From Halalkaliarchaeum sp. AArc-CO (GTDB taxonomy: Archaea > Halobacteriota > Halobacteria > Halobacteriales > Haloferacaceae), in NCBI RefSeq assembly GCF_024972735.1, contig NZ_CP087723.1, positions 1,240,001 to 1,304,000 of the forward strand: a DNA stretch of 64,000 nucleotides, given 5' to 3'. The notes under the pieces were generated by a model. That model did not search any database. It was not told the DNA's origin and worked only from the letters and a program-made list of their open reading frames with translations. This document shows positions 20,361 to 48,557 of the stretch, in pieces. Position numbers and translations under genes: made by a program. Within the stretch, counting starts at the first letter, position 1. Every line of letters starts with the position of its first letter.

Positions 20361-22748
20361 CTACAGCGCGCCAGCCGGAATGGCGGGACAGCCGCCGCCC
20401 AGACCGCCGTCGTCGCCGTCACCGTCGTCATCCTCCTGGTCGTCTTCGCCGGGGTCGTCGGGGTCGGCGGCGGTTTCACCGGCCATGTACGCCAGATCTT
20501 CCTGCTCGATCTGGTTGGCGTCCGGATCAGAGACGTCGGTCAGTTCCTCGTTGAGATCCGGATCGATGTCGAGGCTGCTGGCGCCGGTGTCGCCGTCGGT
20601 TCGTCCCTCCAGGTCGACCCGCCAGGCGTCGTTGGGAACGACATCGGCGTTGCCGTCGTAATGCTGCCACTGACGGGAGAACGACCCGTCGTAGACGGCA
20701 ACGTCGTCGTACCCCAGGACGCCGTCGAGCGCGAAGAAGCTCATCGTCGCGCGGTAGCCGCTGCCACAGTAGGTGACGATCTCGTCACCGTCGGAGACAC
20801 CGTCCAGATCGAAGACGTACGATTCGATCTCGTCAGCGCTCTTCCAGGGGGCGTCGCTGAAGTACTCCGCCCCTTCGTGGTAGTTGCTCGGCGGATCGAC
20901 GACCGCATTGGCGAGCGTGGCATCCGGATCGGGACGGTTGTCCAGGAACGAAATCCCCGTCTCGCCGTCGTTGACAGCGTCGACCTTCTGGATCGTGTCC
21001 CCGAGCGACAACCGGAGATCGTCGTTGAGATCGTCGTTGTCCTGGACGCTGAACGTCGTGGTGGCCACGTTCGGTTCGTCCCCCTCTGCGAGACCGTACG
21101 CTTCCTCGTAGGCGGTGAACCCGCCGTTGAGAACTTTGACGCGATCGCGGGGGAAGCCCCAGTACCGCAGCGTGAAGTACGCCCGCGCCGCCCGGAGGGG
21201 TGCCGGAGCCGAGATCACGATTGTGGTCTTGTTACAGACGCCGGCACGCTGCAGGAGTTCGTCCATTGTCGCGCCGTCCGGGACGGTCGGCGAGAGCTCC
21301 GACAGCGCCTCGAACCGGGTCTGATGGACCGTCTCCCACGGCACGGCGCCGGGGACGTGCCCGTCCTCGTACTCGTCGATGCCGAAGGCCCGGAGGACGA
21401 CGACGCGTTCGCGGCCGTCGGTGTTTTCGCGGTTGACCATCCCACGCGCCTGGTACTCTTTGAGCGTTTCGGGCTCGATGAGCGCATTGTCGGTTTCGGT
21501 GGGATCGGGTTCCGGGACGGCCGGTTCGTACTCGTCGCCGGCCATGTACGCTTGGTCCTCCTGTACGATCTGGTTGGCGTCCGGATCAGAGACGTCGGTG
21601 AACGCTTCGTTCAGCGACGGGATGATCTCCAGTTGGCTCTCCCCAGTGTCGCCGTCAGTCCGCCCCTCGAGGTCGGTCCGCCAGGCGTCGTTTGGCACCA
21701 CGTCGGCGTCGCCGTCGTAGTGCTGCCACTGGAAGGAGAACGACCCGTCGTAGACGGCAACGTCGTCGTACCCCAGGACGCCGTCGAGCGCGAAGAAGCT
21801 CATCGTCGCGCGGTAGCCGCTGCCACAGTAGGTGACGATCTCGTCGCCGTCGGAGACGCCGTCCAGATCGAAGACGTACGATTCGATCTCGTCGGCACTC
21901 TTCCAGGGAGCGTCGCTGTGATATTCGGGGCCCTCGTGGTAATTGCTCGGCGGGTCGACGACCGCGTTAGCAATGGTGGCGCTCGGGTGGGGACGGTTGT
22001 CCAGGATCGAAATCCCGGTCTCGCCGTCGTTGACGGCGTCGACCGTCTGGATCATCTCGCCCAGAGAGACCCTCTTGTCGTCGTTCAGCCCGCCGTTATC
22101 GCGGACGCTGAACCCGGACGCGGTCACGTCCGGCTCTCCTCCGGTTTCGAGGCCGAACTCCTCGTCGTAGGCGGTGTACCCGCCGTTGAGGATTTTGATG
22201 CGCTCGCGGGGGAATCCCCAGTAGCGCAGCGTGAAGTACGCACGAGCCGCACGGAGCGGGTTCGGGCCCGACAACACGATGGTGGTGTTCTCGTCGACGC
22301 CCGTTTGTTGGAGCATCTCGTCCATCGCCTCGCCGTCCGGAACCGTCGGGGCGAGAGCTGCAAGCGCCTCCGTCCGACTCCCGTGGAGCGCCCCCCACGG
22401 CAGTGCGCCGGGGACGTGTCCGTCCTCGTAATTTTCCGTATCGAAGACGCGAAGCACCGTCACGCGCTCCTCGCCGTCGCGTGCGGCGTTGACCAGGCCC
22501 TCGTCCTGCCACGCCGCAAGCATTTCGGGCTCGATCAGCGCGGTCTGCGTCTCAGTCGGCTCCGGCGTCTCCGGTTCCTCGGTCGGTTCCTCCGCGGGTT
22601 CTTCGGTCGGTTCATCTGTCGGCGTGTCCTGGGGTTCCTCTTCCCCCGCACAGCCGGCGATCGCAGCCATGCCAGCCAGGCCTGTCGCCTTGACGAACTG
22701 TCGTCGCTTGATCGACCGATCTCGGTCAGTTCTGTCGTCCATGGGCAT
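20361..22748 (-). CDS. secreted lipoprotein with four rhodanese domains (two tandem sulfurtransferase modules)
   Basis: 795 residues. KRRQFVKATG followed by a lipobox with Cys33 marks Tat export and lipid anchoring, then a Glu/Pro/Thr linker (40-68). Two homologous modules follow (about 70-405 and 420-757). Each has an N-terminal rhodanese without catalytic Cys and a C-terminal one with CGSGYRAT (Cys308 and Cys661). Each ends with SDPDANQI and an acidic YMAG stretch. Two-domain rhodaneses of this type are thiosulfate or 3-mercaptopyruvate sulfurtransferases; four domains is double the usual size. The tail is Gly/Asp-rich and ends with an extra Cys. It diverges from a molybdopterin oxidoreductase operon, which suggests extracytoplasmic sulfur transfer, perhaps thiosulfate or polysulfide handling. 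Confidence 0.9.
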   Translation of the reverse strand: MPMDDRTDRDRSIKRRQFVKATGLAGMAAIAGCAGEEEPQDTPTDEPTEEPAEEPTEEPETPEPTETQTALIEPEMLAAWQDEGLVNAARDGEERVTVLRVFDTENYEDGHVPGALPWGALHGSRTEALAALAPTVPDGEAMDEMLQQTGVDENTTIVLSGPNPLRAARAYFTLRYWGFPRERIKILNGGYTAYDEEFGLETGGEPDVTASGFSVRDNGGLNDDKRVSLGEMIQTVDAVNDGETGISILDNRPHPSATIANAVVDPPSNYHEGPEYHSDAPWKSADEIESYVFDLDGVSDGDEIVTYCGSGYRATMSFFALDGVLGYDDVAVYDGSFSFQWQHYDGDADVVPNDAWRTDLEGRTDGDTGESQLEIIPSLNEAFTDVSDPDANQIVQEDQAYMAGDEYEPAVPEPDPTETDNALIEPETLKEYQARGMVNRENTDGRERVVVLRAFGIDEYEDGHVPGAVPWETVHQTRFEALSELSPTVPDGATMDELLQRAGVCNKTTIVISAPAPLRAARAYFTLRYWGFPRDRVKVLNGGFTAYEEAYGLAEGDEPNVATTTFSVQDNDDLNDDLRLSLGDTIQKVDAVNDGETGISFLDNRPDPDATLANAVVDPPSNYHEGAEYFSDAPWKSADEIESYVFDLDGVSDGDEIVTYCGSGYRATMSFFALDGVLGYDDVAVYDGSFSRQWQHYDGNADVVPNDAWRVDLEGRTDGDTGASSLDIDPDLNEELTDVSDPDANQIEQEDLAYMAGETAADPDDPGEDDQEDDDGDGDDGGLGGGCPAIPAGAL
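20677..20786. repeat. 110-bp direct repeat copy A within the rhodanese gene
   Basis: I read this 110-nt segment as identical to 21736-21845, an offset of 1059 nt (353 codons). It encodes the active-site region CGSGYRAT of the last module. Flanking sequence diverges at synonymous sites, so the perfect block points to recent duplication or ongoing gene conversion between the two modules. Confidence 0.9.
21736..21845. repeat. 110-bp direct repeat copy B within the rhodanese gene
   Basis: Partner of the block at 20677-20786, covering the active-site loop of the first catalytic rhodanese domain in the same gene. Confidence 0.9.
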
Positions 22749-23027: not shown

Positions 23028-25394
23028 ATGTCATCCGAAGGAACACGCGAAGCGAAAGAGCAGGGTCGGGTCAACTTGACCCGCCGCAGACTCGTGCAGA
23101 TCGGCGGCGCCGGCGCAGGGGTCGCAGTGAGCGGCTGTCTCGGGTTCTTCGAGGAGACCGAGGAGGAGCCGACTCCGACCGAGGAACCGCCCGAAGAGCC
23201 CACAGAAGAACCGACCGAGGAACCGCCCGAAGAGCCCACAGAACGGCTCGCGTACGGGATCTGTGAGATCTGCCACCACCAGTGTGGCCAGGAAGTGGTG
23301 GTCCGCGACGACGGTGAACAGGCAGTAACGTACATCACCGGCGTCGACGGCAACCCACGCGGAAGCGCCGGCGAGGGAACCGAGGGAACGATCTGCCCGA
23401 AAGGACAGACCCAGATCGAGAAGGTTCACGATCCGGACCGGATCAAGCAGCCCCACATCCGCGAGAACGGTGAGCTCCGCGAGGTGAGCTGGGAGGAAGC
23501 CTTCGAGTACACGGCACAGCGTCTCCAGGAGTTCGACGCCGAGTACGGCGCGGAAACCTTCCTCAACGCAGCCAGCTTCACGACCACCCCGGTTCACAAC
23601 CAGTTCTGGCGGAACCTCTACGGTACTCCCGAGCGTATCGGCCGTGGAATCCACGTCTGTGCGGGTCCGACGTTCCAGGCCGGCGGCGTAATGGGCGTCG
23701 GATCGAACAATCGGATCCCGGATTACCAGAACTCCGAGTACATCATCGCCTGGGGCCGGAACATGCTCGAGACGTTTGCCGGCCAGTTCGAGGCGAAAGG
23801 GGTCATGACGGCGTTCGAGGAGAACGACGCCACCCTCGTGACGATCGATCCACAGCACACCGAGACTGTCCAGAAGTCCGACAAGTGGCTCCAGATCGAG
23901 CCCCGGACCGACGGCGCGCTCGCGTTGGCGATGGCGAACGTCATCATCGAAGAGGACCTGTACGACGAGGAGTTCGTCGAGAACTGGACGTACGGCTTCG
24001 AGGCGTACCGCGAGGCAGTCGAGGACAAAACCCCCGAGTGGGCCGAAGAGATCACCGGTATCGACGCCGAGGACATCCGCGAGGTCGCGATCGGCTTCGC
24101 GGAGGCTGCACCGAACGCTGGAATTTCGATCTGGACCGGCACCGCCCAGTACGGCAACGCCTGGAAAGGCACCCAGAACATCACCGCCCTCAACGGGCTC
24201 GTGGGCAACATCGACAGGCCGGGCGGGCTCCGGCTCTGGCAGACCGCACCGCTCGGAAACCCCTTCGAAATTCGGGAGGTCGGGCTCCCGAACAACGCGT
24301 CCGGCAAGACGCCCGCCCTCAGAAAGCACGAAGAGTACGAGGACTACGCAGTTCGGCACACGGAAACGATCGCTCACAACCTCGTGCCCGACATGGTCGA
24401 GAACGGGCACATCAACGGGATCTACTGTCACTACGACCAACCGTTGAAGGACGGAAACGCGGAGGCGTGGATCGAGGCGCTCGAAGAGATGGATCTCGTG
24501 ATCTCCGTCGACGCGTTCTGGAGCGGCGTCGCGAAACGGGCGGACATCGTCCTTCCGGAGGCGACACAGCTCGAGATGGACACGGTCGATAACGGCGGGT
24601 GGAGCGCCTACAGCAACAACAGCTGGATCATCGGTTCCAAGGCCGCAATCGAGCCCCAGTGGAACACCAAACCGGGCTTCGACATCCTCGCCGGCATCGC
24701 AGAAGAGATGGGCTGGGGCGAGTACTTCCCCTGGGACAGCGAGCGGGAGTTCATCAACGACCAGCTCTCGATCCACGATCTGACGCTGGATGAACTCGAG
24801 TCGGGCGGCGACAACTACGAACTCGTCGACGAGTACGACTACGAGCAGTGGAGAAACGGTGACGGGACGGCGTTCCGCTTCGACCTCGATCAGATCGGCG
24901 TCCTCGTCGACGCCTTCGAGGAGACCGGGATGGACACCGCTCCCGAGTGGATCCCCCCGGGAACGTACGGAGACGAAACCAGCGACGAGTATCCCCTGGA
25001 GTTCTTCGACACTCGCGCGGTGTTCTTCTCGCAAGGTGGGGACCAGCACAGCGAACAGATGTTAGAACGGTACGCACTCCGGCACAAACTCGCCGACGAA
25101 GAGTACCGCGGGAACTACCTCGTCATCAACCCGTCGGACGCGAACGAACGGGGTATCGAAACTGGCGACATGGTTCGCATCGAGTCCGCGACCGGCGAGG
25201 GCGAACTCATGGCGTACGTTTCCGAGCGCACGAAACCCGGCTTCGTCACCGCGACGTATGGCTTCGGCGAAGGGTCGGTACAGCCCGACAGGGAAGGAAT
25301 GAACACGATGAAACTCCACGAAAAACAGATGGACCCGATCTCCGGACAGCCGGACAGACACATTGCTGTCGACGTGGCACCGGGGGGTGACTGA
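23028..25394 (+). CDS. molybdopterin oxidoreductase catalytic subunit, PsrA/PhsA-like Tat lipoprotein
   Basis: 788 residues. A Tat-like RRR start (residues 19-21) with lipobox Cys37 is followed by a Glu/Pro/Thr linker (43-72). Then comes the [4Fe-4S] site Cys79, Cys82, Cys86 and Cys123 (CEICHHQC ... CPKG). The Mo-ligand position is Cys211 (IHVCAGPTF), as in polysulfide and thiosulfate reductases, where DmsA has Ser. A molybdopterin dinucleotide-binding domain closes the protein. It should reduce a sulfur or similar acceptor outside the membrane; the exact acceptor cannot be read. It heads an operon with an Fe-S subunit, a TorD-like chaperone and an HTH-10 protein. No NrfD/PsrC membrane subunit is present, so the lipid anchor is probably its membrane attachment. 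Confidence 0.9.
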   Translation: MSSEGTREAKEQGRVNLTRRRLVQIGGAGAGVAVSGCLGFFEETEEEPTPTEEPPEEPTEEPTEEPPEEPTERLAYGICEICHHQCGQEVVVRDDGEQAVTYITGVDGNPRGSAGEGTEGTICPKGQTQIEKVHDPDRIKQPHIRENGELREVSWEEAFEYTAQRLQEFDAEYGAETFLNAASFTTTPVHNQFWRNLYGTPERIGRGIHVCAGPTFQAGGVMGVGSNNRIPDYQNSEYIIAWGRNMLETFAGQFEAKGVMTAFEENDATLVTIDPQHTETVQKSDKWLQIEPRTDGALALAMANVIIEEDLYDEEFVENWTYGFEAYREAVEDKTPEWAEEITGIDAEDIREVAIGFAEAAPNAGISIWTGTAQYGNAWKGTQNITALNGLVGNIDRPGGLRLWQTAPLGNPFEIREVGLPNNASGKTPALRKHEEYEDYAVRHTETIAHNLVPDMVENGHINGIYCHYDQPLKDGNAEAWIEALEEMDLVISVDAFWSGVAKRADIVLPEATQLEMDTVDNGGWSAYSNNSWIIGSKAAIEPQWNTKPGFDILAGIAEEMGWGEYFPWDSEREFINDQLSIHDLTLDELESGGDNYELVDEYDYEQWRNGDGTAFRFDLDQIGVLVDAFEETGMDTAPEWIPPGTYGDETSDEYPLEFFDTRAVFFSQGGDQHSEQMLERYALRHKLADEEYRGNYLVINPSDANERGIETGDMVRIESATGEGELMAYVSERTKPGFVTATYGFGEGSVQPDREGMNTMKLHEKQMDPISGQPDRHIAVDVAPGGD

Positions 25395-25396
25395 CT

Positions 25397-26029
25397 ATGG
25401 CTGAAGACTGGATATTCTACTACGACTACAACAAGTGCATCGGCTGTCACGCCTGCTCGGTGTCCTGCAAGCAGTTCCACAACGTGGAAGCGACGAAAGA
25501 CGACTGGCGGAGCGTCGAACACGTCGAAAGCGGATCCGGAAACGAGTTTGAGGAGATCCCGATCTCCACCTCCTGTATGCACTGTCCGGACGCTCCCTGC
25601 GTGGACGTGTGCCCTGTCGACATCATCGAAAAGCGGGAGGAGGACGGTATCGTGGTTCACGAACGCGACGAGTGTATCTTCTGCTTCCAGTGCGGCGAGG
25701 CGTGTCCGTACGACGCCCCCACCTACCCCGAGGACGAACAGCTAATGGCGAAGTGTAACTTCTGTCTCGGCGAGGGGCCCGGAAGCGCCTACGGCCAGCC
25801 GGAGAAACAGAAGGAATCGGACGGCGGCAAGAAGCCGTCCTGCGTCGACAACTGCGTCGGCGGTGCGATCCAGGCTGGTCCCGTCGACGAAATGCTCGAA
25901 CTCGCTTCCGCAGAGGCCGTCCAGCGGTACGAGGACGGTGCACAGAACCAGCGTGTGATCGTCGAACCGATGCGTAAAGGGACGACGGACGTTGATACGC
26001 TCATCGAATCCGCTGTATCGGAGGACTGA
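25397..26029 (+). CDS. four-cluster [4Fe-4S] electron-transfer subunit (PsrB/DmsB-like)
   Basis: 210 residues with no signal peptide, as expected for a B subunit that is carried through Tat with its catalytic partner. Cys groups in order: CIGCHACSVSC, CMHCPDAPCVDVC, CIFCFQCGEAC and CNFC with a distant CVDNC, giving four cubane clusters. It passes electrons to the molybdenum subunit encoded 2 nt upstream. The electron donor is unclear because no quinol-oxidising membrane subunit is encoded. Confidence 0.92.
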   Translation: MAEDWIFYYDYNKCIGCHACSVSCKQFHNVEATKDDWRSVEHVESGSGNEFEEIPISTSCMHCPDAPCVDVCPVDIIEKREEDGIVVHERDECIFCFQCGEACPYDAPTYPEDEQLMAKCNFCLGEGPGSAYGQPEKQKESDGGKKPSCVDNCVGGAIQAGPVDEMLELASAEAVQRYEDGAQNQRVIVEPMRKGTTDVDTLIESAVSED

Positions 26030-26065
26030 CGCAGACTCATGATGGTCGTCTCACCGGGGGAACAC

Positions 26066-26659
26066 ATGCTCAGTACTGACGACCGACGATCGCTTGCGGA
26101 GCTGTACGCGCTGCTGTCGGCGTGTTTCCAGACGCCCGACGAGGAACTCGTGGAGGCAATCGAGGAAGGCGACCTCCACGAACAGCTCCTGACCCGTGCC
26201 GAACCGCTCGGAATCGACCCGGAACGCCCATCTCTCGGCGACATCGACAGCGTCGGCGACTTCCAGGAAGCGTATCTCCGGAGCTTCGAGGGGTACGAGG
26301 GGCCGTCGGCGCCCCCGGCGGAGTCGGTCTACGAACCGTGGTGGGACGATCAGGACCGCGAGATCCTCTCGGGTCCTGCCGCAGCCGACATGCGGCGCCG
26401 ATTCGACGAGGTGGGCGCCGATGTGCCCGAACGATATCCTCCAGACCACGTGGCACTCCTGTTGGAGTACGGGAGTCTCCTGCTGGAAGCAGGCGAGTTG
26501 GAGGCGTACGATCAGTTCCACCGCGATCACTTCGACTGGATCCCGGAGTTTCACGCCCGAGTCGAGGAGACGTGCGACGAGCCGTTCTACCGATGGGCGA
26601 CAGCGGTACTGTCGGCGACGATCGAGGCTGTAGAATCGCGCCTTCGACAGGAGCAGTAA
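26066..26659 (+). CDS. TorD/DmsD-like Mo-enzyme assembly chaperone
   Basis: 197 residues, mostly helical, with RRSLAELYALLSACFQTPDEEL near the start and the loop PPAESVYEPWWDDQ in place of the family PPYxSxY. Members bind the Tat signal of the catalytic subunit until cofactor is inserted. The ATG at 26066 starts at the first conserved helix; an in-frame ATG at 26039 would add nine residues. It is in the same operon as its likely client encoded at 23028. Confidence 0.8.
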   Translation: MLSTDDRRSLAELYALLSACFQTPDEELVEAIEEGDLHEQLLTRAEPLGIDPERPSLGDIDSVGDFQEAYLRSFEGYEGPSAPPAESVYEPWWDDQDREILSGPAAADMRRRFDEVGADVPERYPPDHVALLLEYGSLLLEAGELEAYDQFHRDHFDWIPEFHARVEETCDEPFYRWATAVLSATIEAVESRLRQEQ

Positions 26660-26663
26660 CGGA

Positions 26664-27038
26664 ATGCAATCTTCACGGGACCGCCCGGAGTCCGACGACA
26701 GTCGAACCAGGATTACGGTGACGGTATCCGATCCTGGAGCGACCGCTGAACTGCTGAACTGTCTCCTCGAGCAGAGTGAAGGCGTCGACAGCAGTCAGAT
26801 TCACATCTCGGCGACTGATCCACAGGAGGTTCAGACGGTGACGGTCGACGGCCTCACCCAAAAGCAGCGACAGGCGGTCCTGAGTGCGACAGCCCTCGGC
26901 TACTACGACGATCCTCGTTCGGCGTCGCTGGGCGACGTTGCCGCCGAACTCGACGTGTCGGATTCGGCAGCGTCGAAACGGTTGAAAACGGTCGAACGAA
27001 AGCTGGTACTGGCACTTGCAGACCAACTCTCTAGTTGA
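26664..27038 (+). CDS. short HTH-10 family regulator
   Basis: 124 residues. The C-terminal half LTQKQRQAVLSATALGYYDDPR ... LDVSDSAASKRLKTVERKL is the Bat-type helix-turn-helix. The N-terminal part (about 15-70) is a small alpha/beta region, TVSDPGATAELLNCLLEQ, with no PAS or GAF. It is the last gene of the first oxidoreductase operon, 5 nt after the chaperone gene. DmsR in Halobacterium dms operons is a Bat-like regulator, so autoregulation or control of the second operon is plausible. Confidence 0.8.
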   Translation: MQSSRDRPESDDSRTRITVTVSDPGATAELLNCLLEQSEGVDSSQIHISATDPQEVQTVTVDGLTQKQRQAVLSATALGYYDDPRSASLGDVAAELDVSDSAASKRLKTVERKLVLALADQLSS

Positions 27039-27490
27039 GCAACGTCGTCGATGTGCCGCGGCAGAGGTCGACCGTCGCAGAGGTCGTGTCGCTTTCGTCC
27101 GATTTCCCGATGACGAGACGCTTCGCGTCTGGAACCACTTGACACGGAGGCGGTAACACTGTACGTTTGATTGTGAAGGGAAAAATCGTCGATTATCTTT
27201 CCCTATTAGCACATTCTCTCTATTCGTGCCGATAACGACTGCTATTCGGGAGCAGTTGGCAGCTAGCTACTAGTATATATTCCTTTCTTATGGAGGAGCT
27301 ACCATAATTATTCAGAATTATTTAAATTAAATAAATACTTCATATTCAATAGACATGCACTCCCCAACCCAGTTCTTATACAAAATCGCTACAGGGACTC
27401 CGAGAAACGCCTGACGACTACCTTCCGAGACGGACTGCCCCGTCGACAGGGGCGAACCAGCGATCCAACGAACCAGTCCACCGACAGATC
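27039..27490. other. 452-nt AT-rich intergenic region before the second Mo operon
   Basis: No gene seen. From about 27180 to 27360 the sequence is far richer in A+T than the rest of the window, with a block of A/T-only runs at 27313-27336 that would serve as a TATA element. A short reading frame from the ATG at 27355 ends after 19 codons and is not in frame with the next gene. The frame of the next gene is open back to the TAG at 27350. Confidence 0.6.
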
Positions 27491-28513
27491 CTGAGCAAGT
27501 CAAAACCGAACGGAGAAACGGACGGAGAAGAGAGCCGTGGAACGATACGGCGCCTCGCCGCGATCGGCGGCGCCGCCGTCGGGACGGCCAGCGCGGGCTG
27601 TCTCGGGTTCTTCGAGGAGGAGGAACCCGAACCGACGCCGACGCCCGAACCGGAGGAGACGCCGACACCGACGCCCGAAGAGGAGGAAACGCCGACGCCG
27701 GAACCGCCCGAAGAGGAACCGGACGTCGAACTCGGGATGGTGATCGACCTCCAGCGGTGTTCCGGCTGTCAGGCGTGTAACATCGCCTGCAAGAACGAGA
27801 ACAACGTCCAAGAGGGGTTCGCCTGGTCCGACCGGATTACGGTAACGGACGGGGAGTTCCCGGACACCAGCTACGAGTTTATTCCGACACTGTGTAACCA
27901 CTGTGAAGACGCTCCCTGTATCGACGTGTGTCCCGTCGCCGGCGACGCCCTCTACAAGGGCCCCGGCGGGATCACGATGCAGAACCGCGACGAGTGTATC
28001 GGCTGCCAGCAGTGTGTCGGCGCCTGCCCGTACAACAAGATCGAATTCTCCCAGGGGGAGCAGTACGACTTCTGGCGCGGCGACGAACGCGTCATGGCGG
28101 GGACGGCGACGCCTCGGGAAGTCACCGAGCAGGTCGGCGATTACGTCCCCCCGTATCAGAACCCCTCGCGTGACTCCCTTGAGGGACACTACGCCGACCG
28201 CGCTGACGCGGACGGTGCAATGGACTCGGGGGTCGCCGAGAAGTGTGAGTTCTGTGTCTCCCGGGTCACGCAGGGCGAACTCCCCGCGTGTGTCGAGGCG
28301 TGCCCCTGCGACGCGCGGATCTTCGGCGACCTGAACGATCCGGACAGTTCGGTGAGCCATGTCCTCGAAGAACACGACGGTCGATTCGTCGACGAGTGGT
28401 ACGGCGAGGACTTCGGTACCGAACCAAAGGTGCAGTACATCCGCGAGTTCGACGGCAGCGACGCCGGGGAACCGCTCGGCGTCGGAAAGGGAGAGGTTCC
28501 CGAACTCGACTGA
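27491..28513 (+). CDS. four-cluster [4Fe-4S] subunit with its own Tat-lipoprotein signal; probable CTG start
   Basis: About 340 residues if started at CTG 27491 (would read MSKSKPNGETDGEE). The in-frame sequence before the first internal ATG (27737) encodes TIRRLAAIGGAAVG, a lipobox SAGCLG and a Glu/Pro/Thr linker like that of the 23028 product, so this part is clearly coding. There is no ATG, GTG or TTG in frame back to the stop at 27350. Four [4Fe-4S] clusters follow: CSGCQACNIAC, CNHCEDAPCIDVC, CIGCQQCVGAC and CEFC with CVEAC. It is the electron-transfer partner of the catalytic subunit 12 nt downstream. A mutated start or an assembly error is the alternative. Confidence 0.8.
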   Translation: MSKSKPNGETDGEESRGTIRRLAAIGGAAVGTASAGCLGFFEEEEPEPTPTPEPEETPTPTPEEEETPTPEPPEEEPDVELGMVIDLQRCSGCQACNIACKNENNVQEGFAWSDRITVTDGEFPDTSYEFIPTLCNHCEDAPCIDVCPVAGDALYKGPGGITMQNRDECIGCQQCVGACPYNKIEFSQGEQYDFWRGDERVMAGTATPREVTEQVGDYVPPYQNPSRDSLEGHYADRADADGAMDSGVAEKCEFCVSRVTQGELPACVEACPCDARIFGDLNDPDSSVSHVLEEHDGRFVDEWYGEDFGTEPKVQYIREFDGSDAGEPLGVGKGEVPELD

Positions 28514-28525
28514 GAGGTGATACTC

Positions 28526-31261
28526 ATGTCAAAAGCAAACGACGACATCGCGGCCGAGCACAGTAAGAGAGACGGCGTCATGCCGACCGACCGGAGAGGG
28601 TTCCTCAAACTCGGGGCGGTGGGCGTTGCAGGGGCCGCAGCGACCCTGCAACTGTCCGCGCTCGCCGAGGCCGAGGACGGAGTCGACACGGCGTTTTCGC
28701 CCCGGGACGCCCTCGCGGAAGAGACTGGGGAGTGGCGCGCCTCGACGTGTGCGGGGTGTACCTCGTGGTGTGCCTCCGAGATCCTCGTCGAGGGCGGGCG
28801 CGCCCTGAAGGTCCGCGGGAACTCGAACTCCCAGATCCACGGCGTTTCCAACTGTCCCCGCAAGCACCTGGGCATCCAGCAACTGTACGATCCCGACAGG
28901 GTCACCCAGCCGATGCGGCGGACGAACCCGAACAAAGGCCCCGACGAGGATCCGGAGTTCGAGCCGATCACGTGGGATGAGGCGATCTCCGAGATCGCCG
29001 ATCATATCATGATGCTCCGGGAGAACGAGGAGACCCACAAGGCGATGGTCACCCGCGGCCGGTACACGTACCTCCGGCCGATCCTCTACAGTCATTTCCC
29101 GGCGATCGTCGGCACCCCGAACAACATCTCCCACAGCGCGATCTGTGCGGAGGCCGAAAAGTTTGGCCCGTACTACACCGAAGGCGAGTGGTCGTACCGC
29201 CAGTACGACATCGAGAACACCGACTACGTGATCGCGTGGGGAGCAGACCCGATAAACTCCAACAGGCAGGTCTCCTACTACTCCAGCGAATGGGGAGACA
29301 TGCTGGACGACGCGGATCTCGCGGTCGTCGAACCGCGCCTGAGTGCGACTGCCGCCAAGGCGGACGAGTTCCTCCCCGTCGAACCAGGCGAGGACGGCGC
29401 GGTCGCGGTCGCGATGGCCCACGTGATCCTCACGGAGGGGCTGTGGAGCCGCGAATTCGTCGGCGAGTTCGCGGACGGCGAAAACCTGTTCGTCGAGGGC
29501 GAGGAGGTCGATCCCGGGGAGTTCGACGAGTCCGAAAACAGTACCGGCGTCGTCGACTGGTGGAACGAGGAGCTGAAGAACAAGACCCCCGAGTGGGCAG
29601 CGGAGCGCTCCGGCGTGCCGGCCGACCAGATCGAACGCGTCGCCCGCAACTTCGGCGAAGCTGGACCGAACGCCCTCGTGTGGATGGGTGGCGGCCCGGT
29701 CATGCAGGTTCGGGGCAGCTACACCAGCATGGCGGTCCACGCGCTCAACGGCCTCGTCGGCTCCGTCGGTAACGAGGGTGGAACGCTCTTTTCACCGTCC
29801 GACGGTACCGCGAGCCTCCCCGGCGCGGACGACTACATCGACGAGGTCGCCCAGCAGGGGCTCGACTACATCGAGGAACACCGCGACGAGGTGACCGGGG
29901 ACAAGATCGACCAGCGCGGCGCCAAGGACCAGCCCGTGCTCAAGGAGGGGTCGTCCGGCGGCGGCGTCGTGACCAACAACGCCGCCGACGGGATGCTGGA
30001 GGAGGACCCGATGGAGATCAAGTTCCTGCTGTCCTACTGGAACAACTACGCCTTCTCCAATCCCGAGAACCAGCGCTGGATCGATGCGCTGGAGAAACTC
30101 GAGGGCGAGGAGTACCTCCACGTCACCGTCGAGACCAACCCCAGCGAGACGGCATGGTTCGCCGACATCGTTCTGCCGGCGACCCACCACCAGTTCGAGC
30201 GGTGGGGTCAGCTCCGCAGCACGGCCGCCCGTCGTCGGTCGATCAACCTCCACCAGCCGGTGCTGTGTGACGATCCCGACGATCCGGAGGAGGTCCTCGA
30301 GAACGGCCGTCTCTGGAACGTCAAAAGCGACGAGACTGAGATCGTCTACATGATCGCCGACGAACTGGCCGAGCGGGGCTTCACCGAGATGCTCGACTAC
30401 TGCGAGCAGTACGAGGACCCCGAAACCGGGTTGTCTCCGAGCGACGAGTACGACGACCGCGAACTCCGCGCCCAGGCGTTTTCCCGGAACGCGATCAAAC
30501 TCCGCATGCAGCCGATGTGGGACCCGGAAGTCGGTCATCCCGGCGGCGACGACTACGACGGCTGGGAACAGTTCCGGGAAGCCGGCATCTGGAACTCCGA
30601 CGAGTGGGAGTACAGACACCGCTGGCCCTCGGAGGGCGGGGAGTTCGGCACCGTGTCGGGCACCTTCGAGTTTTACAGTGAGACGCTCAAAGAGGCTCTC
30701 GGCGGCCACGCCGACCGCTACGACACGGACGTCGACGACATCCTCGAGACGTGTAACTATCTGGCACGGGAAGGCGACGATAACGCGCCGCACCCGTTCC
30801 TCCCGCACTACGAGGAGCCGTACATCCACGGCGAGGACGACTACGACTTCGAGTTCGTCGACTACAAGTCCCGGCTCAACAGGGAGGGACGGTCGGCGAA
30901 CACAGAGTGGTACCAGGAGTTCGGCGACGCCGATCCCGGCGACGAACCCGGGCAGGACGTCGTCAAGCTCCACCCGGACGACGCCGCCGACCTCGGCATC
31001 GACGACGGCGACGAGGTCGTGATCGAGTCGCCCGTCGGCGAAATCGAGTGTACGGCCAAACTCTGGGAAGGCGTCCAGCCCGGCACGGTCGCCAAGACGT
31101 ACGGGCAGGGGCACTGGGCGTACGGCCGCAGGGCCGCCGAGGTGTTCGGCGAGGAAGCCAAAGGTGGCAACAACAACCGCCTGATCCCGGCCGACTACGA
31201 CCGTCTGAGCGGAAGTTCGGTGTTCTACGGCTGTGTCAGCGTCAACGTGAAGCCGCAGTAA
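28526..31261 (+). CDS. molybdopterin oxidoreductase catalytic subunit (Psr/Ttr/Arr clade), Tat-exported
   Basis: 911 residues from MSKANDD (a GTG at 28517 would add three). The canonical Tat motif DRRGFLKLG is at residues 22-30, with no lipobox Cys. The [4Fe-4S] site is Cys75, Cys78, Cys82 and Cys110 (CAGCTSWC ... NCPRK). Cys207 in ISHSAICAEAEKFG is the likely Mo ligand, followed by YVIAWGADPINSNRQ. The C-terminal domain binds molybdopterin dinucleotide (VVKLHPDDAADLGIDDGDEV). Size and motifs put it with tetrathionate, polysulfide and arsenate-type reductases. The acceptor is undecided. Its Fe-S partner upstream carries the lipid anchor, the reverse of the first operon. Confidence 0.9.
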   Translation: MSKANDDIAAEHSKRDGVMPTDRRGFLKLGAVGVAGAAATLQLSALAEAEDGVDTAFSPRDALAEETGEWRASTCAGCTSWCASEILVEGGRALKVRGNSNSQIHGVSNCPRKHLGIQQLYDPDRVTQPMRRTNPNKGPDEDPEFEPITWDEAISEIADHIMMLRENEETHKAMVTRGRYTYLRPILYSHFPAIVGTPNNISHSAICAEAEKFGPYYTEGEWSYRQYDIENTDYVIAWGADPINSNRQVSYYSSEWGDMLDDADLAVVEPRLSATAAKADEFLPVEPGEDGAVAVAMAHVILTEGLWSREFVGEFADGENLFVEGEEVDPGEFDESENSTGVVDWWNEELKNKTPEWAAERSGVPADQIERVARNFGEAGPNALVWMGGGPVMQVRGSYTSMAVHALNGLVGSVGNEGGTLFSPSDGTASLPGADDYIDEVAQQGLDYIEEHRDEVTGDKIDQRGAKDQPVLKEGSSGGGVVTNNAADGMLEEDPMEIKFLLSYWNNYAFSNPENQRWIDALEKLEGEEYLHVTVETNPSETAWFADIVLPATHHQFERWGQLRSTAARRRSINLHQPVLCDDPDDPEEVLENGRLWNVKSDETEIVYMIADELAERGFTEMLDYCEQYEDPETGLSPSDEYDDRELRAQAFSRNAIKLRMQPMWDPEVGHPGGDDYDGWEQFREAGIWNSDEWEYRHRWPSEGGEFGTVSGTFEFYSETLKEALGGHADRYDTDVDDILETCNYLAREGDDNAPHPFLPHYEEPYIHGEDDYDFEFVDYKSRLNREGRSANTEWYQEFGDADPGDEPGQDVVKLHPDDAADLGIDDGDEVVIESPVGEIECTAKLWEGVQPGTVAKTYGQGHWAYGRRAAEVFGEEAKGGNNNRLIPADYDRLSGSSVFYGCVSVNVKPQ

Positions 31262-31278
31262 CGAATTCAACACCAACG

Positions 31279-31911
31279 ATGAACGAACTATCCAGGGACG
31301 AACTGCTGGCCGAGGCGGAATGCCGAGGGAACGCCTACAAGTTCCTCTCGGTCTGTTACCGCCTCCCGGACGAGGAGTGGCGAGAGACGATGGCGGCCGC
31401 GCGGAACGCCTCGATACACCCGCGCCTCGAGGAGCTGGTCGGGACAACGCCCCCCGATCGTGACGATCTCCGGGTCGACTACGCGAAGCTGTTCGTCGGT
31501 CCCTTCGAGGTGCTCGCGCCGCCGTACGGGTCGGTGTACATGGAGCAACACGGCAGGGCGATGGGCGAGTCGACCCTGGATGTCGAGCGCAGATATCGGG
31601 AAGAAGGGCTGGATATCGGCCTCGACGAGCCCGCCGACCACATCGTGGCAGAGCTGGAGTTCCTCTACTACCTCGTCGTAAACGAGGCCGAGGCGCTCAG
31701 GAACGACGATCTCGAGACGGCCGCCACCTATCTGGAGAAACAGCGGTCGTTCCTCGAGAGCCACCTCGGGAACTGGATCGGCGAGTTCGCGACCAACGTC
31801 GCCGAGAACGCCACCACCGAGTTCTACCGGACGCTCGGCCGGGAGACGGCTCGGTTCGTCGACGGCGATCTAAACCGGATTCGAGAGCAACTCGAGAGAC
31901 TGGACGGCTGA
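31279..31911 (+). CDS. TorD/DmsD-family chaperone for the second Mo enzyme
   Basis: 210 residues with the family signature FVGPFEVLAPPYGSVYMEQ and helices typical of redox-enzyme maturation proteins. A later block, LDEPADHIVAELEFLYYLV, matches the conserved ExxDH region. It starts 17 nt after the catalytic gene and closes the operon. The two chaperones of the window are clearly different, consistent with one dedicated chaperone per enzyme. Confidence 0.9.
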   Translation: MNELSRDELLAEAECRGNAYKFLSVCYRLPDEEWRETMAAARNASIHPRLEELVGTTPPDRDDLRVDYAKLFVGPFEVLAPPYGSVYMEQHGRAMGESTLDVERRYREEGLDIGLDEPADHIVAELEFLYYLVVNEAEALRNDDLETAATYLEKQRSFLESHLGNWIGEFATNVAENATTEFYRTLGRETARFVDGDLNRIREQLERLDG

Positions 31912-47672: not shown

Positions 47673-48557
47673 TCAGGGATGTTCGTCCGTCTCGACGGCG
47701 AACTCCTCGCGGGGTTGGCCGGTACAGGTGAGGACGTAGCCCTCCTCGATCTCGTCGTCGTCGAGAACCTGATTGTCGGTCATCTCGACGAGTTCGTGCC
47801 CGTCGCCGTCGACCTTCGCGGTACACTGCCCACAGACGCCGACTTCACACTGGTAGGGAAGATCCCAGCCCTGATCCAGGCCGGCGTACAGCAGCTCCTC
47901 GTCTTCGCTCACCGGGATCGTCTCGCCTTCCTTCACGAACTCGATGTCGTACTGCTCTCCGTCGTCGACAGCGTCTTCCTCTTCGGTGTCGTCCTCGTCG
48001 TCGGGGTGGACGCCCGTCTCGATGGCGAACTCCTCGCGGGGCTGGCCGGTACAGGTGAGGACGTAGCCCTCCTCGATCTCCTCGTCGTCGAGGTAGTCGT
48101 TGGACGTCATCTCGACGAGTTCGTGCCCGTCGCCGTCGACCTTCGCGGTACACTGACCGCAGACGCCGACCTCACACTGGTAGGGGAGATCCCAGCCCTG
48201 ATCCAGGCCGGCGTACAGCAGCTCCTCGTCTTCGCCTACCGGAATCGTCTCGCCCTCGTTGGTGAACTCGATGTCGTAACCTTCACCGTCGTCGCCGGTG
48301 TCGCCCTCCTCGCCGTCGTCCTCCTCGCCGTCGTCCTCGCCGTCCGCCGGGTCTTCGGGCTCCTGGAGATGTTCGGGTTCCTCGAACAGCCCGACGCAGC
48401 CGGCCGTCCCGACGGCCGCAGCGCCGGAGATGGCAGCAAGGACTTTCCGGCGCTGTGTTTTACAGCCGCCACGACCATCACAGTCGGCACCGTTCCCGCC
48501 GTCACAGTCGCTCGTTTTCGGTACGTGGGGCGTTTCTCCCGAAGCACTGTCGTCCAT
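47673..48557 (-). CDS. Tat lipoprotein with two tandem plant-type [2Fe-2S] ferredoxin domains
   Basis: 294 residues. QRRKVLAAISG (35-45) and lipobox TAGC (Cys54) are followed by an acidic linker. Two nearly identical ferredoxin domains follow (about 93-185 and 202-292), with clusters at Cys128/133/136/169 and Cys237/242/245/278 (CEVGVCGQC ... TCTG). The repeat period is 109 residues. The N-terminal 34 residues before the Tat motif contain three additional Cys. It would be an extracytoplasmic electron carrier, unusual for this class. It could deliver electrons to the anchor-less Mo reductases of this window, but that is only inference. Confidence 0.9.
   Translation of the reverse strand: MDDSASGETPHVPKTSDCDGGNGADCDGRGGCKTQRRKVLAAISGAAAVGTAGCVGLFEEPEHLQEPEDPADGEDDGEEDDGEEGDTGDDGEGYDIEFTNEGETIPVGEDEELLYAGLDQGWDLPYQCEVGVCGQCTAKVDGDGHELVEMTSNDYLDDEEIEEGYVLTCTGQPREEFAIETGVHPDDEDDTEEEDAVDDGEQYDIEFVKEGETIPVSEDEELLYAGLDQGWDLPYQCEVGVCGQCTAKVDGDGHELVEMTDNQVLDDDEIEEGYVLTCTGQPREEFAVETDEHP

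Follow-up and report, generated by a model that had tools for sequence, protein, structure and literature searches.

Lipobox-bearing PsrAB-like and ArrBA-like molybdenum reductases without a linked NrfD subunit in Halalkaliarchaeum sp. AArc-CO

Polysulfide and thiosulfate reductases of the PsrABC/PhsABC type (Thermus thermophilus, 2vpw; haloarchaeal Psr) and arsenate reductases of the ArrAB/ArrCAB type (Shewanella ANA-3, 6cz7) are the closest described relatives of two neighbouring molybdenum (Mo) reductase operons of Halalkaliarchaeum sp. AArc-CO, located in a window of 64,000 nt (G000:C2:1240001-1304000; G000 is the 3.18 Mb genome). PsrC, the NrfD-type membrane subunit, was called indispensable by Duval et al. 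2008 (PMC2500031). Strain AArc-Sl provides one earlier example of a Psr operon that lacks psrC (PMC6176080), and a term search of that paper turned up no reference to lipoproteins. In bacteria ArrAB often lacks ArrC (PMC2500031, PMC8076601), and in Shewanella the anchor-less ArrAB is served by CymA (PMC2500031). Lipoproteins exported by the twin-arginine translocation (Tat) pathway are common in haloarchaea, NirK and NosZ being predicted examples (PMC8301774).

Operon 1 (23028-27038) and operon 2 (27491-31911) each encoded a catalytic Mo subunit, a four-cluster iron-sulfur (Fe-S) subunit and a chaperone (Table 1). No NrfD gene was found in the window or linked to either operon; the nearest one precedes operon 1 by about 44 kb. 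The predicted lipoboxes lie on opposite subunits, the catalytic one in operon 1 and the Fe-S one in operon 2. The initial annotation had described this gene content and this arrangement; both held when genes and leaders were read, both operons lying where it had placed them, with a single correction to a start codon in operon 2. The leader of the operon 1 catalytic subunit reads LTRRRLVQIGGAGAGVAVSGC-LGFFEE, a Tat-lipobox, and a 41-residue Glu/Pro/Thr tether separates its predicted lipid-bearing Cys37 from the [4Fe-4S] motif; the operon 1 Fe-S subunit is presumably exported jointly with it. The catalytic subunit of operon 2 has the plain Tat signal DRRGFLKLGAVGVAGAA...ALAEA. Because no ATG, GTG or TTG was found upstream of the lipobox of the operon 2 Fe-S gene, the CTG at 27491, the only sensible candidate in the frame, must be its start. 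The ortholog in the sister species G015 (82% identical) has ATG at that same codon, and 7 of 7 codon differences between the two leaders after residue 15 are synonymous; the leader is therefore real.

Family assignments were based on matches to solved structures and NCBIfam models. The operon 2 catalytic subunit scored 898 bits against Shewanella ArrA (6cz7) and 1041 bits against NF041714 (equivalog cut-off 1600); ArrA was by far its best family and best structure match, although an ArxA-type function was not separable from it. The Fe-S subunit scored 226 bits against 6cz7 chain B and 255 bits against its best family, NF041715 (cut-off 450). As in ArrAB, both subunits could be aligned over nearly their full length, the ArrB is of the four-cubane type with 16 cluster cysteines, ArrA has a Tat signal (DRRGFLK), and the Mo-ligand Cys206 aligned within NNISHSSVCAEA of 6cz7. 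Operon 2 differs from ArrAB/ArrCAB in that its ArrA falls under the equivalog cut-off, its gene order is B-A instead of arrAB or arrCAB (haloarchaeal relatives, C-B-A), it contains no multihaem cytochrome, and its Fe-S subunit is a predicted long-tethered Tat-lipoprotein. Anchor-less ArrAB with a predicted lipid anchor was also seen in bacteria (Frackibacter, a deltaproteobacterium and Sulfuricurvum), but there the catalytic subunit carries the lipobox.

The best solved structure for the operon 1 catalytic subunit was the Thermus polysulfide/thiosulfate reductase 2vpw (209 bits), and the best NCBIfam model was PhsA (288 bits against a cut-off of 694). Operon 1 resembles PsrABC/PhsABC in its PsrA- and PsrB-type subunits and the order A-B-chaperone, and haloarchaeal Psr operons in its rhodanese and HTH_10 neighbours and in the catalytic lipobox, which all relatives seen carry; it differs in lacking PsrC and in its longer acidic tether. 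A DmsABC identity did not fit, as DmsA models scored far under cut-off and the anchor was absent. Since both operons score under the NCBIfam equivalog cut-offs, their substrates are likely rather than proven: operon 1 is likely a PsrAB-like polysulfide/thiosulfate reductase and operon 2 likely an ArrBA-like arsenate reductase.

Relatives were collected from 392 genomes of the class, eight of which held an ArrA of the operon 2 kind. An NrfD-like gene followed by a signal-less Fe-S gene was present in Halalkalirubrum salinum, Halorubrum alkaliphilum (two copies), Halobiforma nitratireducens, G187, G242 and a second copy of G015. All seven ArrB proteins with an NrfD were without a signal, whereas all three without NrfD (AArc-CO, its G015 ortholog and SHR40) had a Tat-lipobox; the split has no exception, and one change on the tree suffices for it. 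Predicted lipid and NrfD are mutually exclusive in the haloarchaeal ArrBA family as sampled, and the restriction of the ArrB lipobox to operons without ArrC suggests another attachment route. An Fe-S subunit of a Mo reductase that serves as lipid anchor and alternates exactly with NrfD was not found described in the literature searched. SHR40 was basal in the ArrA tree; the ArrB tree joined the three lipoprotein forms (88/91), and a single clade was not rejected (approximately unbiased test, p-AU 0.39). As to the direction of the switch, both NrfD loss and NrfD gain remain compatible with these trees.

Operon 1-type enzymes were present in 23 of the 392 genomes. Every catalytic subunit read carried the Tat-lipobox, including all 21 NrfD-bearing relatives, and NrfD was present downstream in all genomes but AArc-CO, G015 and SHR40. 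The predicted lipobox of operon 1 is ancestral by this distribution, and NrfD loss was ruled out as its cause. The initial annotation had suggested lipid as an alternative to the membrane subunit; the operon 2 family supports this, but the operon 1 lipobox cannot be an NrfD substitute because all the NrfD-bearing relatives have it. The tether from lipid Cys to cluster motif measured 38-41 residues in the three NrfD-less copies and 19-29 in the 21 others. As the three form one clade (support 100/99), the longer tether represents one event. A fourth NrfD-less operon, in G294, was considered and rejected when reading of its open reading frames revealed an intact PsrC gene; its tether (23 residues) was counted among those of the NrfD-bearing copies. 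AArc-CO, G015 and SHR40 hold both the NrfD-less operon 1 and the lipoprotein ArrB. In SHR40 the two operons are on different contigs, and its only two NrfD genes are both on a contig other than that of operon 1.

The genome is not short of NrfD. Six NrfD and seven Mo catalytic genes were found; two NrfDs lie within Mo operons (1.118 and 2.853 Mb), while the other four have no Mo partner and occupy three sites, two at 1.216-1.220 Mb, one at 1.518 Mb and one at 1.749 Mb. Each of these Mo-free NrfDs was accompanied by a four-cluster Fe-S protein that carries a Tat motif of its own; in those proteins that were tested, a PF16947 domain stands at the N-terminus. Unlinked NrfDs, for which the initial annotation had proposed a search, are present, but no unlinked ArrC or PsrC of the original type was found, the four free copies falling outside the haloarchaeal ArrC clade (100/100) and the operon 1 PsrC type. 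At all three sites the Mo-free modules adjoin a tandem plant-type [2Fe-2S] Tat-lipoprotein. This lipoprotein occurs in 11 of the 392 genomes; it adjoins Mo-free NrfD in G015 (three sites), G228, genus g55, G403 and a Halodesulfurarchaeum metagenome-assembled genome, and lies about 4 kb from it in G172 and G242. The paired NrfDs belong to two separate clades, so the pairing is not a single inherited cluster. In SHR40 a halocyanin lipoprotein is found within a Mo-free NrfD module. The literature searched contained no paper on NrfD together with halocyanin, nor a description of tandem [2Fe-2S] lipoproteins that accompany Mo-free NrfD modules. A separate carrier, earlier sought in the [2Fe-2S] lipoprotein at 47673 or a halocyanin, is supported in kind, one or the other adjoining the Mo-free modules; however, the 47673-48557 copy is the sole one of the four that is not beside a NrfD, and its G015 ortholog (L123) stops after the first domain, the second having been lost.

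The GCLGFFEE start shared by the two reductase lipoproteins, also noticed before, goes beyond a common haloarchaeal motif. Degenerate DNA for GC(L/V)GxF(D/E) occurred just four times in the genome, against none for the reversed control, and the four leaders are only those of both reductases and two tandem [2Fe-2S] lipoproteins. From the lipobox onward, a 106-base stretch of the G015 ArrB leader DNA shares 86% identity with the leader of a [2Fe-2S] lipoprotein in the same genome. This points to leader exchange between reductase and [2Fe-2S] lipoprotein genes, which does not by itself prove that the products work together.

Table 1. Features of the two reductase operons and their surroundings (window coordinates)
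Feature	Coordinates	Strand	Remarks
Tandem ExtH-like rhodanese Tat-lipoprotein	20361..22748	-	divergent from operon 1
Operon 1 catalytic Mo subunit, PsrA/PhsA type	23028..25394	+	Tat signal and lipobox at Cys37
Operon 1 four-cluster Fe-S subunit, PsrB/DmsB type	25397..26029	+	signal peptide absent
Operon 1 maturation chaperone, TorD-type	26039..26659	+	PF02613
Regulator HTH_10	26664..27038	+	same type flanks most operon 1 relatives
Operon 2 Fe-S subunit, ArrB type, 16 cluster cysteines	27491..28513	+	own Tat-lipobox (Cys37), 43-residue tether, CTG start
Operon 2 catalytic subunit, ArrA type	28529..31261	+	plain Tat signal, lipobox absent, Mo-ligand Cys206 conserved
Operon 2 maturation chaperone, TorD-type	31273..31911	+	PF02613
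Tandem [2Fe-2S] ferredoxin Tat-lipoprotein, candidate carrier	47673..48557	-	one of four in genome

Further observations concerned the surroundings of these genes. The rhodanese lipoprotein beside operon 1 has 795 residues and scored 478 bits against NF040901 (cut-off 200); shorter rhodaneses of its family flank many operon 1 orthologs, and the lipoprotein itself is absent from the same place in G015. Some operon 1 relatives (loci L180, L182, L183 and L165) are flanked by genes that, judged by eye, are TusA-, rhodanese/metallo-beta-lactamase- and YeeE/YedE-like; such neighbours would fit a sulfane-sulfur role. Among the Mo-free modules, locus L037 (G000:C2:1208000-1226000) is a single cluster that combines two NrfD/Fe-S pairs, their NrfDs from different clades, with both a tandem [2Fe-2S] lipoprotein and a duplicated-domain lipoprotein. 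The module Fe-S proteins at L039:5215-6378 and L037:6605-7843 have PF16947 ahead of an internal Tat motif, and the L039 protein also has a lipobox-like GLAGC. Extra single-domain [2Fe-2S] lipoproteins were observed in G172 and G242 (L120, L121, L122, L110), with one TGA in the match region.

The account preferred here, to which we give not quite an even chance, is that lipid-anchored carriers convey electrons from shared Mo-free quinol modules to the tethered PsrAB and ArrBA. PsrAB (for sulfane sulfur, as polysulfide or thiosulfate) and ArrBA (for arsenate) would cross the membrane by the Tat pathway and remain fixed to its outer face through a long acidic tether and a lipid whose attachment we infer. 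Neither reductase would oxidise menaquinol by itself; separate, shared modules of NrfD and a Tat-exported four-cluster Fe-S protein would do so and pass electrons to lipid-anchored carriers (the tandem [2Fe-2S] lipoproteins, or the halocyanin beside the corresponding SHR40 module), from which the tethered reductases would receive them. More tentatively, such modules may constitute a haem-free extracytoplasmic hub in haloarchaea, charging lipid-anchored tandem [2Fe-2S] ferredoxins or halocyanin and serving several lipid-tethered Mo reductases, a wider idea that we regard as possible yet doubtful. The hub would resemble the CymA-dependent periplasmic reductases of Shewanella, in which terminal reductases without an anchor depend on a single common quinol dehydrogenase; it would differ in consisting of NrfD, an Fe-S protein and a [2Fe-2S] lipoprotein, with no c-type haem.

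Several observations weigh against the supply of both reductases by shared modules. The potentials of plant-type [2Fe-2S] ferredoxins usually lie well below that of menaquinol, so that transfer from menaquinol to the [2Fe-2S] lipoproteins would be uphill, and the potential of halocyanin is much too high for sulfur reduction. Argued from such typical potentials of the protein classes, redox potential would be the main difficulty of the proposed electron path. The Mo-free modules share no operon with the reductases, the nearest lying about 44 kb off, and a direct link is absent; they also occur in genomes whose reductases own a NrfD. SHR40 has the NrfD-less enzymes, yet the tandem [2Fe-2S] lipoprotein was not found there. 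The shared leaders may be due to recombination instead of common work, and the comparison amounts to only about two independent lineages because AArc-CO and G015 share one genus.

Docking in trans would dispense with carriers altogether: PsrAB and ArrBA would sit on an unlinked NrfD/Fe-S module or on NrfD alone, and the [2Fe-2S] lipoproteins would serve something else. A four-cluster Fe-S subunit is the normal contact of NrfD, and four NrfD genes are without a Mo partner, but none of these is of the haloarchaeal ArrC clade or the operon 1 PsrC type, and the docking face of each would already be filled by the Fe-S protein that accompanies it. The confinement of the ArrB lipobox to operons without ArrC also suggests a different attachment, and this explanation was considered unlikely. 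The enzymes might instead run in the oxidative direction, with arsenite or sulfide as donor and halocyanin or [2Fe-2S] lipoproteins as acceptors, much as arsenite oxidases donate to copper proteins or cytochromes, and therefore need no quinol-oxidising subunit. Arsenite oxidases are found within the single lineage formed by ArrA and ArxA (PMC10100899), and soluble shuttles serve arsenite oxidase (PMC2500031). The halocyanin of SHR40 stands next to a Mo-free NrfD module, and arsenic-resistance genes were not noticed next to operon 2. Although direction cannot be told from sequence, the best match is the respiratory ArrA and rhodanese often flanks operon 1 relatives; in sulfur-respiring Halodesulfurarchaeum no Psr is more abundant than a rhodanese-linked PsrA (PMC5437934). 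Oxidation is rated as rather improbable.

An unrelated donor, such as cytochrome b or another quinol dehydrogenase, has a precedent in the haloarchaeal nitrate reductase NarGH, which likewise lacks a classical anchor and for which a cytochrome b (NarC) has been proposed as donor (PMC8301774). Neither operon contains such a gene, nor do those operons of relatives that were read, and the explanation appears still less probable than an oxidative role. Decay would account for the CTG start in AArc-CO and for the absence of an NrfD that relatives have; on this view the operons are remnants that have shed NrfD and, in operon 2, the start codon of the Fe-S gene, and their lipoboxes serve no particular purpose. 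Decay is very improbable, however, as all frames are open, all 16 cluster cysteines are kept in each Fe-S subunit, identity to the sister species is 78% and 91% for the catalytic and 84% and 82% for the Fe-S subunits, the operon 2 leader has changed only synonymously after residue 15, and the same pair is kept in a second lineage, SHR40.

NrfD, which is held indispensable in polysulfide reductases, is absent from two different reductases of one cell, and in ArrBA a predicted lipid on the Fe-S subunit occurs exactly where NrfD is absent. How an anchor-less enzyme gains access to quinone is a question for the haloarchaeal nitrate reductase too. Mo-free NrfD modules together with ferredoxin lipoproteins offer a concrete candidate route by which anchor-less reductases may be connected to the quinone pool without multihaem cytochromes.

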